Shown here: piece after piece, positions 2,750-23,008 of the stretch
Numbering within the stretch: the first letter of the stretch is position 1
Layout: the number at the start of each line of letters is the position of its first letter
DNA from: a virus
Direction: 5' to 3' (one strand)
DNA length: 23,062 nucleotides
Virus record (IMG/VR): IMGVR_UViG_3300012936_003905
Location: 1-23,062 of that record
Program-made: the position numbers and the translations under genes
Notes under the pieces: generated by a model
Told to the model about the DNA's origin: nothing
Database searches by the model: none
What the model saw: the letters and a program-made list of their open reading frames with translations, nothing else

Positions 2750-3778
2750 ATGAAACTATTAAAGATTTTATCTGTAGCATTTACGATGCTACTGACAGTA
2801 CCCTTTTCATTAGCAAATGCTGATGAAAAACTTAAAGTTGGATTCATATATATTGGCCCAGTCAGCGACCATGGATGGACTTATATGCATGACCAAGGCA
2901 GACAATTGATTGATGCCAAATTAGGTGATAAAGTTTCTACGATATATGTAGAAAATGTTAAATATGGACCTGATGCCGAAAGAGTAATGAGGCAGATGGC
3001 TCAAACAGGCGTAGATATGATTTTTGCAACATCTTTTGGTTACATGGAATCCATGTTAAAAGTTGCAAAAGAATTTCCAGATGTAAAATTCGAACATGCT
3101 ACTGGATATAAAACTGCTCCTAATATGTCAGTATACTCATCAAAATTTTATCAAGGTAGATATATTCAAGGTGTTATTGCTGGGCATATGAGTAAAACAG
3201 GAAAAGCAGGATACATTGCTTCATTTCCAATTCCAGAGGTCATTCGTGGTATTAATGCATTCTATCTAGGTGCTACAAGTGTAAATCCAGATTTTGATAT
3301 CGATGTAGTGTGGGTTAATTCCTGGTATGATCCAGCTAAAGAAGCAGATGCAGCTAAAGTTCTCATTTCTCAAGATGCTGATATTATCACTCAGCATACA
3401 GATTCTCCTGCTGCATTACAAATTGCTGCCATGCATGAAGGTGTGATGGCATTTGGTCAAGCTTCTGATATGATTAAATTTGCACCTGAAACTCAACTAA
3501 CTGCAATTATTGATGATTGGGGTCCGTACTATGTAAAAAGAGTACAGGAACTAATTGATGGCACTTGGAAAAGTTCAGACACATGGGGAGGTATGGATAC
3601 TGGTATGGTGAAAATGGCATCATATTCAAACATGCCTGCTGCTTTAGCAAATATTGCTGAAGAACTAGAAGCTAAAATTACTAGCGGTGAATTAGATCCA
3701 TTTGGTGGCAAATTTACAGACATTGAGTTATTAGGCATGAGTGAATACTTGCCTGGTATCGATGCAATCAAACCTTAA
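2750..3778 (+). CDS. BMP-family (PnrA/Med-like) periplasmic solute-binding protein
   Basis: 342 residues, with a clear Sec signal peptide (MKLLKILSVAFTMLLTVPFS, cleavage likely after ANA at about 24) and then a BMP-family substrate-binding fold: KVGFIYIGPVSDHGWTY, SFGYMESM, FEHATGYKT, GRYIQGVIAG and a VWVNSWYDPAKEADAA segment. Members of this family bind nucleosides or related ligands and deliver them to an ABC importer. No lipobox Cys is present, so the product should be a free periplasmic protein, as in Gram-negatives. No permease or ATPase gene is nearby, so it would have to use a host transporter. It is expressed from a late promoter and ends in a terminator. Length is normal and the gene looks intact; ligand unknown. 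Confidence 0.85.
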   Translation: MKLLKILSVAFTMLLTVPFSLANADEKLKVGFIYIGPVSDHGWTYMHDQGRQLIDAKLGDKVSTIYVENVKYGPDAERVMRQMAQTGVDMIFATSFGYMESMLKVAKEFPDVKFEHATGYKTAPNMSVYSSKFYQGRYIQGVIAGHMSKTGKAGYIASFPIPEVIRGINAFYLGATSVNPDFDIDVVWVNSWYDPAKEADAAKVLISQDADIITQHTDSPAALQIAAMHEGVMAFGQASDMIKFAPETQLTAIIDDWGPYYVKRVQELIDGTWKSSDTWGGMDTGMVKMASYSNMPAALANIAEELEAKITSGELDPFGGKFTDIELLGMSEYLPGIDAIKP

Positions 3779-3838: not shown

Positions 3839-3942
3839 TGGCTCTAGGGGAAGGAGTCGAACCTCCACGATAAATACTTTTTTGCCAAGAATTTATCACA
3901 TGATTAACAGTCATGCGTGTCTACCAGTTTCACCACCCTAGA
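3839..3942 (-). tRNA. tRNA with anticodon GUU and an unusually long variable arm (class II body)
   Basis: Read on the minus strand. Acceptor stem TCTAGGG/CCCTAGA (7 perfect pairs), D arm GTG-AAACTGGTAGA-CAC, anticodon arm CATGA-CTGTTAA-TCATG (5 perfect pairs, anticodon GTT at 3906-3908), T arm GGAGG-TTCGACT-CCTTC, discriminator G, and encoded CCA (3839-3841). The anticodon reads Asn codons, but the variable region is 32 nt, with a 7-bp helix GATAAAT/ATTTATC (3867-3898). tRNA-Asn is a class I tRNA with a short variable loop. The D arm (GGTGAAACTGGTAGACACGC) resembles tRNA-Leu, while G73 is not the usual Leu base. The amino acid it carries is therefore open. It ends the AsnRS-like operon. Confidence 0.85.
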
Positions 3943-4072: not shown

Positions 4073-4276
4073 CTTCTTGTTCCTTCATTCTAAACTTTAT
4101 ATCGCAATAACCACAAACAACTTCTCCTCCATCTGGTATTGTATAATATACCTTAGGATGATCCATATGTTCACCCATACACCAAACTCGGTTAGTATCA
4201 GAATATATTATTGTTTCTGGATATTCCATATTCTTCTCAATAAATCTACGTATTTTTTTAGTTCTTCTTTACTCAT
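4065..4276 (-). pseudogene. zf-CHCC-type zinc-finger protein, frame interrupted at a 7-A run
   Basis: The 54-residue ORF 4065-4229 contains C17-x6-HPKVYY-x-IPDG-x3-VCGYC (Cys17, His24, Cys39, Cys42), the pattern of the zf-CHCC zinc finger of NDUFS6-like and alphaproteobacterial proteins. The ATG that couples to the upstream synthetase stop (4276, ATGA overlap) opens a different frame, MSKEELKK, which runs into a stop after 22 codons. Adding one A to the A7 tract (4253-4259) joins them as MSKEELKKIRRFIEKN-MEYPE, a continuous protein of about 70 residues. This may be a sequencing indel, a real mutation, or slippage on the A-run. If broken, 4229 can still start the finger alone. Confidence 0.55.
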
Positions 4277-5073
4277 AATGTCTCCATTGCATTTATCATT
4301 CTAGTCATACCAATACCGCCACCGACTCTTGGGAAGAAATCAAACTTGAGAAATGTTTCTAGTTCTGCTTCTACTCTTTCCTTACCAAACAGTTTAAATA
4401 GTAGTGCTGAATATTCTCCATCAGTAATTGTGTGAAAGGTATCTCGCATTTGTTCTACATCAGTTGATCTTTCAGCAGAGCCTATTGTTTCCATTCCACC
4501 TAAGATGACATCTATCTTTTTACTTGTAACACCATCATCATTTCTAGACATATTCCAAAAAGGTGAAGTAAATTCTGGAAAGTGTGTTATCATTCCATTC
4601 CATATTTTTTCCTCATGCTCATGCTCAAGCTCTTCTGTTTCAAACTCACTAGCCCAATTGTAATAAGTTTTATCTTGTAATTTTGGAAATCCTAAATGCT
4701 CGCAAAGTTCAATTTCCATTGCTTTTAAGTCATCTACATTGCCAGGCATTTCAAATTCAAACATTGGAAAGATAATATCATGTCTACCTGGGACTGCGTT
4801 TGGTTCTTGTCGATACGAAGTGGAGACACAAAAAAAGCCCTTTGCATCGGGCTTGGATAATAATTCGTGTTCTAACCACATTTGACCTGTTTGAGGTAAA
4901 GGCCAAACTTGTCCTGCATAATTATATGTTGCTACATTGAATGGATCTTCACAAGCAGCCAGAATACTTAATCTGTTTTGTGTGTGTACTTCTTCAAACC
5001 CTTTATCTAAAAAAAAGGACCTCAATAGGCCCACTGTGTTTGTAAATTTTGTTGGATTTATTAATTGCGTCAT
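4273..5073 (-). CDS. AsnRS/AspRS-like class II aminoacyl-tRNA synthetase catalytic core without anticodon-binding domain
   Basis: 266 residues. Motif 2-like region: YRQE at 87-90, then GRHDIIFPMFEFE at 96-108, matching the fRxE...RH..EF...E pattern of AsnRS. IDVILGGMETIGSAERSTD resembles the AsnRS G-x-GEI-x-GGS-x-R block. Motif 3 is GGGIGMTRM near the C-terminus, with Arg258 in the ATP-binding position. The N-terminal OB-fold anticodon domain is absent; the protein starts almost at the catalytic core. Possible roles: aminoacylating the neighbouring GUU tRNA, modifying something other than tRNA, or making asparagine like the archaeal AsnRS-derived asparagine synthetase, which has the same truncated layout. 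GGAG lies 9 bases before the ATG, and a late promoter motif lies at 5131-5138. Confidence 0.75.
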   Translation of the reverse strand: MTQLINPTKFTNTVGLLRSFFLDKGFEEVHTQNRLSILAACEDPFNVATYNYAGQVWPLPQTGQMWLEHELLSKPDAKGFFCVSTSYRQEPNAVPGRHDIIFPMFEFEMPGNVDDLKAMEIELCEHLGFPKLQDKTYYNWASEFETEELEHEHEEKIWNGMITHFPEFTSPFWNMSRNDDGVTSKKIDVILGGMETIGSAERSTDVEQMRDTFHTITDGEYSALLFKLFGKERVEAELETFLKFDFFPRVGGGIGMTRMINAMETL

Positions 5074-5130
5074 TTTCTTTTCTCCTTTCAGCTGCCCAAA
5101 AAAAATTTGGTATCATTTTGACGTTGTGTT

Positions 5131-5138
5131 TATTTATC
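5131..5138 (-). promoter_or_regulatory. Late-type promoter GATAAATA (minus strand)
   Basis: GATAAATA on the minus strand, matching the NATAAATA late consensus of marine T4-like phages. It lies 58 bases upstream of the synthetase start and back-to-back with the early + promoter at 5152-5180. Confidence 0.6.
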
Positions 5139-5151
5139 ATAAAAATAATGG

Positions 5152-5180
5152 TTGACATCTGGTTTACAATGTATTATTAT
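5152..5180 (+). promoter_or_regulatory. Early-type sigma70-like promoter
   Basis: GGTTGACA (TTGACA 5152-5157), 17-bp spacer, TATTAT 5175-5180. The flank AAAATAATGGTTGACATCTG is shared with the promoter at 2025. It drives 5207 onward. Confidence 0.8.
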
Positions 5181-5206
5181 ACATATTCTGATAAAGGTAA
5201 AGAACA

Positions 5207-5740
5207 ATGGCTAGAAATAATGTGTGGGTTATCAGCGATACTCACTTCGGACACAAAAACATTTTATCCTTTAAGGATAAAGATACCGGTGATGTAATTA
5301 GGGGTAAAACATTTTCATCTATAGATGAGATGGACGAAACCTTAATTGATAACTGGAATAGAGTAGTTAAACCAGGTGATAAAATTTATCACTTGGGTGA
5401 TGTATTTTTTGGTAACAAACAAGATTTCATCCAGAAGTGGAATAGATTAAATGGTAAAAAGAGATTGATTCTTGGCAACCATGACGATGCTACTTTCTTT
5501 ATGAAAAACAATTTGGTATCCAGGATTGGAGTATGGAGACTATTTCCAGAATACAATCTTGTCTTGACACACGTTCCATTACATGATACTGTGTTGAGAG
5601 AAAATAGGTTCAAAGGTAAGATAGGGATAAATATCCATGGTCATATTCACCATAATCCATCTCCTACTGAGAACCATAGAAATGTCTCAGTTGAGAACAT
5701 TAATTACACCCCAATAAACATTGAGGAATTTATATTATGA
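5207..5740 (+). CDS. Calcineurin-like metallophosphoesterase
   Basis: 177 residues carrying the complete metal-binding motif series of the family: SDTHFGH (10-16), GDVFFG, GNHDD, a lone His in LTHVP, and HGHIHH near the C-terminus. These coordinate the di-metal centre that hydrolyses phosphomonoesters or phosphodiesters; the substrate is not evident. Such single-domain phosphoesterases are common in phages and may act on nucleotides or RNA ends. AAAGGTAAAG lies upstream of the ATG, and this is the first gene after an early promoter. Its stop overlaps the next ATG (ATGA). Confidence 0.85.
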   Translation: MARNNVWVISDTHFGHKNILSFKDKDTGDVIRGKTFSSIDEMDETLIDNWNRVVKPGDKIYHLGDVFFGNKQDFIQKWNRLNGKKRLILGNHDDATFFMKNNLVSRIGVWRLFPEYNLVLTHVPLHDTVLRENRFKGKIGINIHGHIHHNPSPTENHRNVSVENINYTPINIEEFIL

Positions 5741-17059: not shown

Positions 17060-17456
17060 TTGGAAAAAACCAACTGTTCAAATGTTAGGAAGATGGCAAC
17101 CTTGGCATAAAGGACATAGAGAATTATTTAAAAGATGCCATGCGATTTCTGGACAAGTTTGCATTATGATAAGAGATGTTCCAGTTGATACAGAAGCGAA
17201 TGCTCGAGTCCCAGGTCAAGATGATAACCCATTTGATTTTAAAGAAATTGTTAAGCGTATTGCATTAGATTTAGTATCAGAAGGATATGAGTTAAACGTT
17301 GACTTTATTATTCAAAAGGTTCCTAATATTGTAGATATTTCCTATGGGCGTGGTGTTGGTTATACATTTACAGAACATGATTTAGGTTCAGAAATTCATA
17401 GCATCAGTGCAACAAAGATTAGACAACAAATGAGAGAAGATGGTGATATAGAATGA
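17052..17456 (+). CDS. HxGH-family nucleotidylyltransferase
   Basis: 134 residues. GRWQPWHKGH (13-22) is the nucleotide-binding HxGH signature, and ISATKIR (118-124) corresponds to the ISSTKIR motif of the cytidylyltransferase/NMN-adenylyltransferase superfamily. Such enzymes transfer AMP or CMP from NTP to a phosphate or sulfate. Candidates are NMN adenylyltransferase (NAD synthesis) or an adenylyltransferase working with the kinase at 16423; sequence alone does not decide. Its stop overlaps the heme oxygenase ATG (ATGA). GGAGTAAAAA lies upstream of the start. Confidence 0.75.
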   Translation: MFDWKKPTVQMLGRWQPWHKGHRELFKRCHAISGQVCIMIRDVPVDTEANARVPGQDDNPFDFKEIVKRIALDLVSEGYELNVDFIIQKVPNIVDISYGRGVGYTFTEHDLGSEIHSISATKIRQQMREDGDIE

Positions 17457-17995
17457 ACCTAAAAGAATTGACATGGGAGAATCATAAAAATGCAGAAAGA
17501 AAACAATTTGCATCTCTCTTAATGTCTGGAAATATTTCACCTGAACTATATTTCAAATATTTAAGCAATCAATTTTTGATGTACTCTGTATTAGAACAAA
17601 AAGTTGATTTAGATGGTTTAGGTATTAGTGGTATTCGAAGGGCACCTAGTATTTTAGAAGATATGACTGAACTTCAAATGACTCACAAATTCATGTATGA
17701 TGAGAATAACCATGCATGTTCTGTAACAAAGGATTATATCCAATATGTTGCAACAAAAACCTCTGCAGAACTCGTACCTCATATTTACGTAAGACATTTT
17801 GGTGATATGTATGGTGGTGCAATGATTAAGAAAAAGATCCCAGGGTCTGGTAAAATGTATGAGTTCGAAAATAAAGAAGAATTAAAAGAAAAAACAAGAG
17901 CAATATTAAACGATGATATGGCGGATGAGGCAAACAAATGTTTTGAATTTGCTATTCGTCTATTCGAGGAGTTGTTACCTAATGATACAAAGTAA
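17453..17995 (+). CDS. ho1: Heme oxygenase
   Basis: 180 residues. The proximal-heme His is probably His11 in WENHKNAERKQF, matching the H-x-x-AE pattern of HO-1. The distal helix signature is YVRHFGDMYGGAMI (112-125), with the flexible Gly pair. The enzyme opens heme with O2 and reductant (ferredoxin) to biliverdin, CO and Fe2+. It is the standard length for bacterial or phage HO without a membrane tail. The stop lies 14 bases inside the bilin reductase gene, so biliverdin would be handed to that enzyme. It is translationally coupled to the upstream nucleotidylyltransferase (ATGA). Confidence 0.9.
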   Translation: MNLKELTWENHKNAERKQFASLLMSGNISPELYFKYLSNQFLMYSVLEQKVDLDGLGISGIRRAPSILEDMTELQMTHKFMYDENNHACSVTKDYIQYVATKTSAELVPHIYVRHFGDMYGGAMIKKKIPGSGKMYEFENKEELKEKTRAILNDDMADEANKCFEFAIRLFEELLPNDTK

Positions 17996-18677
17996 AATAT
18001 GGGATGCGTTACTAGGTCTGAAAAAACATTACATTGAAACACTTGACGATATCGCTACAGAATATCAAGAACCTGGATTAGAAAAATTTAACCATGCTGA
18101 TGGCGGTTGGGTCAATAGGACATGGAAGAATGAAGATTTTAGACGTGCCCATGTTGATGTTGTAGACGCTCGAGAATCTAATAAACTATGGATGATGCAT
18201 GTCTGCATCTTTCCTCAATATAGCAATGATGGTCCTATATATGGATTTGATGTTATTGCTGGTCCTAATAAAATGACAGGAGCCTTCCATGACTTTAGTC
18301 CTACAATTGATGAAGAAAATGAAATGCATATTTGGTTCAATAAAAAGACAGCCGAAATGCAATGGAAAAGAGAAAGAGAATTACCTGATTGGGCAAAAGA
18401 AATATTTTCTGAAGGAATGATGGCAGCTGGTATGGTTAAAGAACAACATGAAATTGACCAGGTTGTAAACTTTGCAAAAACATCACTAGATTATTATTCT
18501 AAAACCATAGGTAAAACCAATGGTAATCTTTCTGTTGAAATGGGACAAGGTGCCCAAAACAGATACGCACATTTTCAAAAGCAAAATCCTCATACACCAC
18601 GAGTTATGAAATCTTTAGGCCTCGACCCAGAAGCGGTCGATGAGTTTCAAGAGAAATGTCTATTCCCAGAATTATAA
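17982..18677 (+). CDS. Ferredoxin-dependent bilin reductase (PcyX/PebS-like)
   Basis: 231 residues from the ATG at 17982 (MIQSKIWDALLGLKKHYIET); upstream in-frame ATGs lie inside the heme oxygenase gene. Family features: WVNRTW and RRAHVDVVDA, MHVCIFPQ with His73, PIYGFDVIAG with Asp90 (the active-site His/Asp pair of PcyA), FHDFSP, and a C-terminal NPHTPRVMKSLG...CLFPEL block. These enzymes reduce biliverdin with electrons from ferredoxin to phycobilins. In phages, the related PebS and PcyX make phycoerythrobilin; an alphaproteobacterial host would point to PcyX, but the product cannot be read from sequence. Together with ho1 it converts heme to a bilin in two steps. Confidence 0.85.
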   Translation: MIQSKIWDALLGLKKHYIETLDDIATEYQEPGLEKFNHADGGWVNRTWKNEDFRRAHVDVVDARESNKLWMMHVCIFPQYSNDGPIYGFDVIAGPNKMTGAFHDFSPTIDEENEMHIWFNKKTAEMQWKRERELPDWAKEIFSEGMMAAGMVKEQHEIDQVVNFAKTSLDYYSKTIGKTNGNLSVEMGQGAQNRYAHFQKQNPHTPRVMKSLGLDPEAVDEFQEKCLFPEL

Positions 18678-20421: not shown

Positions 20422-20434
20422 TTTCAAAAAATGG

Positions 20435-20463
20435 TTGACATTTTAACGTGTTTATTGTATATT
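20435..20463 (+). promoter_or_regulatory. Early-type promoter of the tmRNA
   Basis: GGTTGACA (TTGACA 20435-20440), 17-bp spacer, TATATT 20458-20463. AATAAATA (20464-20471), a weak late-type motif, follows directly and could extend expression into the late phase. Confidence 0.8.
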
Positions 20464-20471
20464 AATAAATA

Positions 20472-20760
20472 CGTATTGCATTGATGAAACAAGTTGATGC
20501 TCTTCTGGACCCGGGGGCGGTACCCGGCGCCTCCACCATAAGCACTCGTAGATGAGATAATTGGATCACTGCTTGCGAGTGCTTTTGATGGGGGCGAAAT
20601 AGGTTCGACAGGATAGAGAAGATGAGTGGAGATGCCGTGTAGGAGCTACGTTAACGCAACAAAAAAACTAAATGCAAACGACAATTTTGCATCTGAGGAT
20701 TACGCTATCGCAGCGTAGTTACTCGGGGTATGGGTTCCACCTAGCAACAGAACGGGCCTC
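20472..20760 (+). ncRNA. ssrA: Circularly permuted two-piece tmRNA
   Basis: Order: acceptor piece, removable loop, coding piece. The acceptor piece ends with T arm CCGGG-GGCGGTA-CCCGG (20511-20527), acceptor strand CGCCTCC and encoded ACCA (20535-20538). A loop (20539-20589) folds as a 9-bp hairpin AAGCACTCG/CGAGTGCTT. The coding piece begins GGGGGCGAAATAGGTTCGACA (from 20590); GGGGGCG pairs with CGCCTCC across seven positions. The tag frame is GCA-AAC...GCG-TAG (20674-20718), encoding ANDNFASEDYAIAA, ending in the hydrophobic/Ala tail read by ClpXP-type proteases. Near the 3' side, CAGAA can pair with TTCTG of the acceptor piece. This permuted layout is characteristic of alphaproteobacteria. 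tmRNA rescues stalled ribosomes and tags incomplete peptides. Exact outer ends are approximate. Confidence 0.93.
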
Positions 20761-20782
20761 ATTTTTTAGGAGATTCCCAAAC

Positions 20783-20986
20783 ATGAGTAATACAATTATA
20801 ATTGATACACCGGTTGACTATACGTTGAATCCGGATTATGATGTTACTATTACATTTGACGGTGAACCTATACAATGTTCTAATATAGAAATATTGTCCA
20901 ATACAAATATAGAATATGTGTATACAAACGATAATTCTGATTATGATATTGTATATAATTTTGATATAGATACGGAACAAAAATGA
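20783..20986 (+). CDS. Small acidic hypothetical protein, 67 aa
   Basis: The start is at 20783 (MSNTIIIDTPVDYTLNPDYD) behind TTAGGAGATT; the longer frame from 20672 would run through the tmRNA tag region. Very acidic and Tyr/Asn rich, beta-like (DVTITFDGEPIQCSNIEI). Its stop overlaps the next ATG (ATGA). It could be expressed by read-through from the tmRNA promoter. Function unknown. Confidence 0.6.
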   Translation: MSNTIIIDTPVDYTLNPDYDVTITFDGEPIQCSNIEILSNTNIEYVYTNDNSDYDIVYNFDIDTEQK

Positions 20987-21189
20987 CATCTACAGTAATA
21001 TCAACATACCTACATGAAACATCAAAAGCAAAAGCAGACGTTGTTTTAGAAGGTGATTGTTATAAAATTAACTATTATGACGCTCGAGGAGAGCTATTTA
21101 AAACAGAACCATTTCCAGAAAAATCTGTCTGGTATGTAGAATCAGCTGCTGAGAATTGGGCATTAGGAATAAAACAACTCAATGGCTGA
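20983..21189 (+). CDS. Conserved phage hypothetical protein, 68 aa
   Basis: MTSTVISTYLHETSKAKADV, then DCYKINYYDARGELFKTEPF and SVWYVESAAENWALGIK. Small beta-rich proteins of this kind are found upstream of gp33 in marine T4-like phages, with no known role. Coupled to both neighbours by overlaps. Confidence 0.6.
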   Translation: MTSTVISTYLHETSKAKADVVLEGDCYKINYYDARGELFKTEPFPEKSVWYVESAAENWALGIKQLNG

Positions 21190-21415
21190 AATAAAATTAG
21201 AATTAAACTCAGAGAAAATCATGCGAGATATTTCTCATATGATTGACCAAGGTGTTTCTTACATAGACGCAATATGTGAATATGCATCACAAAATGAATT
21301 AGAAATTGAAGTTCTAGGAGAAATCATTCGAAGGTCACCAATCCTGAAAGCAAGAATTTACGAAGAAGCAGAAGACCTAAATTTGGTAGAAAAGACAGTA
21401 AGGTTACCTATATAA
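21182..21415 (+). CDS. 33: gp33-like late-transcription coactivator
   Basis: 77 residues: KIMRDISHMIDQGVSYIDAI, then EIEVLGEIIRRSPILKARIY and the C-terminal EEAEDLNLVEKTVRLPI, which resembles the cyanophage gp33 tail. T4 gp33 bridges RNA polymerase and the gp45 sliding clamp so that gp55 sigma initiates at TATAAATA promoters; this window contains several such motifs. The position directly before gp59 and gp32 supports the assignment. The family is short and diverged; T4 gp33 itself is 112 residues. Confidence 0.75.
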   Translation: MAEIKLELNSEKIMRDISHMIDQGVSYIDAICEYASQNELEIEVLGEIIRRSPILKARIYEEAEDLNLVEKTVRLPI

Positions 21416-22024
21416 ATGTCCTTATATTCAGATGCGGATGCGTTTGGTTTGTATACCTATTATGTCGCTGTGAAACAGCATTTCACAAGTGATTATGATT
21501 TCTTTAAATATGGTGGCAAACTACGCTTAAAACAAACAAGTTTTGATACACGCAAAGATAAGTTTTTCTTTTACAAATTGACAAAGAAGGAAGATGCAAA
21601 GAAAAGAATTCTAGCTAATTTGCTACACAATCCAAAAGTATGGATAGGTGATATAGCAGATAGCGAGAAATGTGAGCAGGTTTATACAGATTGGCTCACA
21701 CGGCAACAACGACTTAGATATTCTTTTAAGTCGGATTTGTCTGAACTTGATGATGACTTTGATACCGAGTTCAAAGTAGTCGGAGGACAACATCCTCATG
21801 TTCTTAAACTATATCTTCAAAAGAGGATAGGTATTGAAACATTGGTTATCTTAGATGACCTTCTCGGGTGTTTTAAATATTGGGATAAAAAAGTTAGAGA
21901 TAACATCGTATATCCCAATATAAATAATAGTGTCAGCAATTATCGACCTTTCCTATACGAGGAGAGTTTTGAGTTAGATAAATTCAAAAAGATTTTGCTT
22001 GACAAATACGAAAATATATTGTAA
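21416..22024 (+). CDS. 59: gp59-like replicative helicase loader
   Basis: 202 residues starting MSLYSDADAFGLYTYYVAVK, with HFTSDYDFFKYGGKLRLKQTSF and DTRKDKFFFYKLTKK, the conserved N-terminal features of T4 gp59 relatives. gp59 binds fork DNA and gp32 and loads the gp41 helicase onto recombination intermediates. It starts directly after the gp33 stop (no gap) and is followed by gp32, the classical T4-superfamily order. Length (T4: 217) is normal. Confidence 0.85.
   Translation: MSLYSDADAFGLYTYYVAVKQHFTSDYDFFKYGGKLRLKQTSFDTRKDKFFFYKLTKKEDAKKRILANLLHNPKVWIGDIADSEKCEQVYTDWLTRQQRLRYSFKSDLSELDDDFDTEFKVVGGQHPHVLKLYLQKRIGIETLVILDDLLGCFKYWDKKVRDNIVYPNINNSVSNYRPFLYEESFELDKFKKILLDKYENIL
21919..21926 (+). 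promoter_or_regulatory. Possible late promoter TATAAATA inside gp59
   Basis: A perfect TATAAATA 135 bases upstream of gp32, inside the gp59 coding sequence. It could give late gp32 expression, but the match could also come from the AT-rich codons. Confidence 0.4.
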
Positions 22025-22060: not shown

Positions 22061-23008
22061 ATGACAACATCATTTTCAGCCCTCAAGAAGTCACGTTCAT
22101 CTTCATTCGATAAGTTGAACCAGCAACTTCAAAAAATGAATACCCAAGGGGGAAGCAATTCAGAACAAGACGAATTTTGGAAACTAGAGGTAGACAAAGC
22201 TGGTAACGGCTATGCTGTGCTTCGTTTCCTTCCTGCTCCTAAGGGGGAAGATATGCCATTCGTTAGAATGTGGGACCATGGTTTTCAAGGTCCAGGTGGT
22301 TGGTATATCGAAAATTCATTGACAACTATTAATCAAGATGACCCAGTATCTGAATACAATAGCAAACTCTGGAACTCAGGCGTAGAGTCTGATAAGGATA
22401 TTGCACGTAAGCAGAAGAGACGTCTTAATTATATTGCCAATGTCTACGTTGTCAAAGATCCTACCAATCCTCAGAACGAAGGCAAGGTCTTCAAGTATAA
22501 GTTTGGTAAGAAAATCTTTGATAAACTAAACGATGTTATGAATCCACAATTTGAAGATGAAAATCCAGCTAATCCGTTTGATTTCTGGGAAGGTGCGGAT
22601 TTCAAATTGAAAGCACGTAATGTGGAAGGATATCGTAACTACGATAAGTCAGAGTTTTCACCTGTTGGTCAAATGACTAATCCAGATGGTGAGGATCTTT
22701 CTGACGAAGCATTAGAGAGTCTTTGGGAAACTCAATACTCTCTTCAGGATCTCGTTGCTCCTAAAAACTTCAAGACATATGATGAACTAAAAGCGAAGCT
22801 TTATAAGGTTCTTGCTCTTGATAGCAGTGACCACGCACCCCAGAACACTGCTGAGGACGATGAGGCGGAGATGAACTTTCAACCAAAGTTTAAGTCTCAA
22901 GAAGCCCCACAGCAACCTGAGGCGCCATCTCCATTAGAGTCTCGTTTTTCCGAAGAAAGCGATGATGATGCATTAGCAATGTTTAAATCACTTGCGAATG
23001 ACGATTAA
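22061..23008 (+). CDS. 32: gp32-like single-stranded DNA-binding protein
   Basis: 315 residues. The basic N-terminal segment KKSRSSSFDKLNQQLQKM corresponds to the cooperative-binding arm; the core has FWKLEVDKAGNGYAVLRFLP, GPGGWYIENS, YIANVYVVKDPTNPQNEGKV and FKYKFGKKIFDKLND as in T4 gp32; the acidic C-terminal tail (SEESDDDALAMFKSLANDD) is the protein-interaction domain. The T4 zinc site (His64, Cys77, Cys87, Cys90) is missing; the whole protein has no Cys. gp32 coats ssDNA in replication, recombination and repair and binds gp59. AAGGAGAC lies upstream of the ATG, and a strong terminator follows. Confidence 0.95.
   Translation: MTTSFSALKKSRSSSFDKLNQQLQKMNTQGGSNSEQDEFWKLEVDKAGNGYAVLRFLPAPKGEDMPFVRMWDHGFQGPGGWYIENSLTTINQDDPVSEYNSKLWNSGVESDKDIARKQKRRLNYIANVYVVKDPTNPQNEGKVFKYKFGKKIFDKLNDVMNPQFEDENPANPFDFWEGADFKLKARNVEGYRNYDKSEFSPVGQMTNPDGEDLSDEALESLWETQYSLQDLVAPKNFKTYDELKAKLYKVLALDSSDHAPQNTAEDDEAEMNFQPKFKSQEAPQQPEAPSPLESRFSEESDDDALAMFKSLANDD

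Follow-up and report, generated by a model that had tools for sequence, protein, structure and literature searches.

An intact two-piece tmRNA gene upstream of gp33 in a marine T4-like phage fragment, with overlapping early-type and late-type promoter elements

The DNA analysed here (the window) is a 23,062-base IMG/VR virus sequence and represents a fragment of a T4-like virus. On its plus strand, at 20478-20756, it carries an intact, circularly permuted tmRNA gene of the alphaproteobacterial type. An original prediction, made from the sequence alone, had described such a gene, with an acceptor half and encoded CCA preceding the coding half and a hairpin-forming segment between them, and had proposed a covariance search with the alpha-tmRNA model. 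That search matched RF01849 (alpha_tmRNA) at 20431-20763 (+) with 129.3 bits (E 2e-35, model positions 1-355), and RF04321 (tmRNA_permuted) matched 20478-20718 (+) with 118.7 bits (model positions 1-213); the Rfam cut-offs are 50 and 47 bits, respectively. ARAGORN independently called a permuted tmRNA with the tag ANDNFASEDYAIAA. The gene order agrees with the prediction: the acceptor half comes first, followed by the coding half. The 3' boundary at 20756 is approximate, and the Rfam match runs on to 20763.

Table. Features of the tmRNA gene, its upstream region and the genes that follow it (positions in the window)
Feature	Position	Strand	Details
Sigma-70-type early promoter, TTGACA-N17-TATATT	20435..20463	+	11/12 consensus positions
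T4-type late-promoter box AATAAATA	20464..20471	+	fits cyanophage consensus NATAAATA
Acceptor half (5' extension, T arm, acceptor 3' strand, encoded ACCA)	20478..20538	+	
T arm	20511-20527	+	stem 20511-20515/20523-20527
Acceptor-stem 3' strand CGCCTCC	20528-20534	+	
Encoded ACCA	20535-20538	+	
Intervening segment, 51 bases, expected to be removed	20539..20589	+	hairpin 20540-20551 with 20573-20584
Coding half (acceptor 5' strand, D-like loop, resume codon, tag, conserved 3' CCTAGCAACAGAA)	20590..20756	+	
Acceptor-stem 5' strand GGGGGCG	20590-20596	+	
Tag reading frame ANDNFASEDYAIAA, stop TAG	20674..20718	+	ARAGORN; resume codon GCA at 20674
Small ORF directly 3' of the tmRNA	20783..20986	+	AGGAG ahead of start; conserved in L112 and L102
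gp33-like late-transcription coactivator	21182..21415	+	PF16805 1.9e-8; phrog_25387 1.5e-12
gp59-like helicase loader	21416..22024	+	PF08993 5.7e-15; phrog_269
gp32-like ssDNA-binding protein	22061..23008	+	PF08804 2.1e-42

The predicted pairing of the acceptor stem across the two halves is complete, with all 7 bp formed, and U20532-G20592 supplies the G3-U70 alanine identity pair; a G-U pair in the acceptor stem is what AlaRS reads. Folding of 20472-20640 gives -58.4 kcal/mol (z -2.5; matched by 5 of 200 shuffles), and in the predicted fold the intervening hairpin stacks on the acceptor stem. An alignment of 18 diverse marine-phage tmRNAs shows pairing in 100% of acceptor-stem and T-stem cells, with compensatory (two-sided) changes in 6 of the 12 pairs of these stems and an invariant G-U pair (18/18). 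The whole structure has a covariation score of 0.364; shuffles give 0.109, none of 500 reaching the observed value, and sliding the structure gives at most 0.137. For a long H2-like helix joining the halves, as predicted by folding, support is weak: the chosen columns pair in 46% of cells of the 18 phage tmRNAs, and covariation did not support the simple MFE helix as H2. The tag frame is complete, as predicted, and ends in IAA, the less common ending among 57 dereplicated phage tags (IAA in 3, LAA in 51).

The tmRNA gene heads a same-strand block that runs, through two small ORFs on that strand, into gp33-gp59-gp32 of the T4 type, and its carrier is a marine T4-like phage. A plus-strand terminator scan of the interval from the tmRNA to gp33 found none, making joint transcription plausible. 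Marine-phage accessory genes fill the remainder of the window. Among them, a heme oxygenase (17453-17995) overlaps a ferredoxin-dependent bilin reductase (17961-18677), a pair that resembles the marine-phage hemO-pcyX cassette (PMC11480375). A FabA-like dehydratase and a Bmp/PnrA-like ABC substrate-binding protein, at 1538-2005 and 2750-3778, are unusual phage cargo. Two neighbouring minus-strand genes encode a tRNA (3842-3942), whose Leu/Ser-like body has a long variable arm and whose anticodon loop, CUGUUAA, gives GUU (Asn), and a 266-aa class II aminoacyl-tRNA synthetase-like protein (4273-5073; PF00152) that shares 73-74% identity with the protein called 'tRNA ligase' in Prochlorococcus phages P-SSM7 and P-SSM2. 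The order is the same in P-SSM7, where the ligase is followed by an 85-nt tRNA-Asn whose variable arm is apparently long as well; the tRNA and the synthetase-like protein may constitute a phage-specific pair.

A tree of 189 tmRNAs places the copy in the window within a virus-only clade of 59 that includes the tmRNA of the methylophage Melnitz (support 0.991, resting on ~270 aligned columns), and its tree distance is 0.37 to the nearest other phages, 1.09 to the nearest bacterial gene and 1.25 to the nearest SAR11-order gene. SAR11-order genomes were picked by the presence of a sequence that we take to be the SAR11-441 16S probe. The best bacterial BLAST match reaches 71 bits among 385 alphaproteobacterial genomes and the best SAR11-order match 60 bits among 78 genomes, whereas other-phage tmRNAs match the window with up to 191 summed bits. 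SAR11-order ssrA genes score ~190-244 bits against 129 bits for the window, so the window tmRNA is divergent. When isolated phages were searched by DNA-level BLAST, the hits were confined to short stretches of the T arm, apart from a single one of 91 bases in a Sinorhizobium phage.

We then considered the locus in relatives, defined as 80 virus loci from a scan with a single gp59 and thus limited to ~49% identity or more. In 33 of them the sequence extends at least 3 kb beyond gp33 on its upstream side, and 30 of these have a same-strand tmRNA; in all 48 loci with a tmRNA, the gene shares the strand of gp33 and lies 0.2-3 kb ahead of it. A partial recheck with Rfam of loci scored as lacking the gene recovered L245, L317 and L320; no tmRNA was found in L266, L299 and L300, so the gene is not essential to the lineage. 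Divergence of the tmRNA tracks that of gp59 (Mantel r 0.68, 0 of 5000 permutations) in 24 dereplicated loci, where dereplication only partly removes the kinship of same-population loci, which are not independent. Two independent metagenome contigs (L242 and L241) repeat this gene together with its context, with gp59 identity of 99-100%. Collectively, these comparisons indicate that the window tmRNA is an old phage gene, inherited vertically and not recently captured. The suggested comparison with host ssrA, made with the sampled alphaproteobacterial genomes, came out in favour of a conserved phage lineage.

The promoter region bears on when the gene might be used. The predicted early promoter is there, but the tmRNA promoter is probably not only early, as a T4-type late box overlaps it in most relatives. 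In the window, this putative late box stands directly after the early promoter and 7 nt before the point taken as the mature 5' end of the tmRNA, where the scan region ended. The box departs from TATAAATA at its first base; it was scored on the cyanophage late-promoter consensus (PMC2984593). Among the 57 phage tmRNA genes left after dereplication, the early pattern occurs in 43 and the late box in 47; 37 have both and 10 the late box only. The 47 boxes compare with ~1.5 expected by chance, with 1 in 165 other (non-SAR11) bacteria and with none upstream of 17 SAR11-order ssrA genes of equal GC. Most late boxes share the early -10 (31/37) and might therefore be taken for an ordinary -10 element. 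Against this, TTGACA-N16..18-NATAAA is followed by TA in 31 of 32 cases, where the background is 11% (the binomial value ignores relatedness), and in the window and four other loci (L243, L246, L274, L286) the late box is shifted away from a separate -10. A TATAAATA box also lies at 21919-21926, upstream of gp32, and likewise in several relatives and in Melnitz, as would be expected of a real late signal. In RB49 and S-PM2, the middle mode of expression is believed to come from early and late promoters that overlap (PMC2984593).

Taken together, our data are best explained by an intact, phage-owned two-piece tmRNA that is inherited with its lineage upstream of gp33-gp59-gp32, is processed by the host and works both early and late in infection, a reading to which we assign a probability of roughly 85%. 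We infer its function by homology and its early/late timing from promoter sequence. Host tRNA-processing enzymes would split the precursor into its acceptor and coding halves, which would stay together by base pairing, and host AlaRS would charge the RNA via the G-U pair. With host SmpB, the tmRNA would then enter ribosomes stalled on truncated mRNA and release them, adding ANDNFASEDYAIAA to the unfinished product, which host proteases would remove. The overlapping elements would transcribe the tmRNA with the gp33-59-32 block from the early into the late phase, and trans-translation would be kept running while host mRNA and the host chromosome are destroyed.

The gene might instead be a recently captured host ssrA, or the product of an assembly join of phage and host contigs. 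tmRNA genes are frequent integration sites for mobile elements, and the type here is alphaproteobacterial, although that type does not fix the host, given that Melnitz carries it and infects a gammaproteobacterium (PMC9004378). The T4 replication genes downstream of the tmRNA and the repetition of the arrangement in two independent contigs speak against a join as well as a capture, and the virus-only clade and the low bacterial BLAST scores led us to reject both for the genomes sampled; we consider this origin barely credible. The claim that the tmRNA is phage-encoded stands. The RNA could also be a relic, or a decoy that interferes with host trans-translation, as has been reported for mycobacteriophage DS6A, whose tag-less tmRNA-like RNA inhibits the endogenous tmRNA (PMC11915505). 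Here, however, the tag frame is complete, and the phage tags mostly keep their LAA ending. Compensatory changes preserve the acceptor and T stems, which fits an RNA that is charged and decoded, so that stem covariation and the retained tag ends together speak against a relic, and we regard this possibility as very unlikely.

A closer competitor accepts a working tmRNA and places its main value in proteolysis, the early recycling of host proteins into amino acids, in which case early expression would be what matters. The strong TTGACA-17-TATATT promoter fits this idea, which is one proposal made for Melnitz (PMC9004378). Yet the late-type box is kept in most relatives, including the 10 without a recognisable early promoter, and its conservation predicts expression while virion proteins are made. 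Moreover, tagging follows stalling and so does not choose host proteins. We find this proteolytic role improbable, if less so than a decoy. The more specific view of the phage-owned, working tmRNA, that it is a near-standard part of the replication/late-transcription module which, with its early and gp55-type late promoters, would stay under phage control throughout infection, virion production included, and would serve phage translation and not early host-protein breakdown, seems to us about evenly balanced between right and wrong.

A tmRNA in a lytic phage means that the phage brings its own ribosome rescue although its likely hosts already have a tmRNA, as do 72 of the 78 SAR11-order genomes sampled. 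Vertical inheritance, together with an arrangement of promoters suggestive of use both early and late, points to selection for rescue in widespread ocean phages. The overlap of early and late elements predicts expression throughout infection and calls into question the published conjecture that the gene is expressed in early infection alone (PMC9004378). In that report, late promoters in Melnitz were sought with TATAAAT, and the single promoter described for the tmRNA is an early one.

A 2022 paper described this gene at this position in Melnitz, and Pelagibacter phage Mosig was also named as a tmRNA carrier (PMC9004378). That survey found tmRNA in 402 of 18,146 phage genomes, with 53 two-piece structures, and counted 17 of 47 clustered contigs as carriers (PMC9004378). 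The original prediction that phage tmRNAs are rare is thus right for phages overall but fails within this T4-like marine lineage, where they are common. Melnitz (EXVC044M, a Methylophilales phage, MZ577097) resembles the window in having a permuted tmRNA of the alpha type that precedes gp33 and gp59 on their strand, and in the promoter elements ahead of that tmRNA, TTGACA-17-TATAAA with TATAAATA. It differs in its tag, ANDNYVPVDYALAA where the window has ANDNFASEDYAIAA, in its known host, the gammaproteobacterial OM43, and in a glutamine riboswitch after the tmRNA; a search of the window at Rfam cut-offs found no such riboswitch.

We also find a permuted tmRNA in Pelagibacter phage HTVC008M (NC_020484, ~145103-145461; 5104-5462 of locus L351, which spans NC_020484.1 140000-147284) that is absent from the record's annotation. 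Like that of the window, it is of the alpha type and lies a few hundred bases upstream of gp33, but its tag is ANFNEYALAA, its score is lower and it falls outside the clade of 59; upstream of it, neither an early nor a late box was found. Alphaproteobacterial ssrA genes, those of the SAR11 order included, share with the window the layout, the T arm, a tag starting with AN and the RF01849 match, yet are about twice or more as distant as the nearest phage relatives, and SAR11-order tags are shorter than the window's (mostly ANDELALAA), with no NATAAATA box in 17 genes. In the part of the literature covered, we found no earlier report of the early/late overlap, of the co-divergence of tmRNA and gp59 or of the gene in HTVC008M. 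A two-piece tmRNA at the gp33 locus is already known, and the window is a further member of that group; what this analysis adds is its old inheritance within phages and the usual presence of overlapping early-type and late-type promoters.
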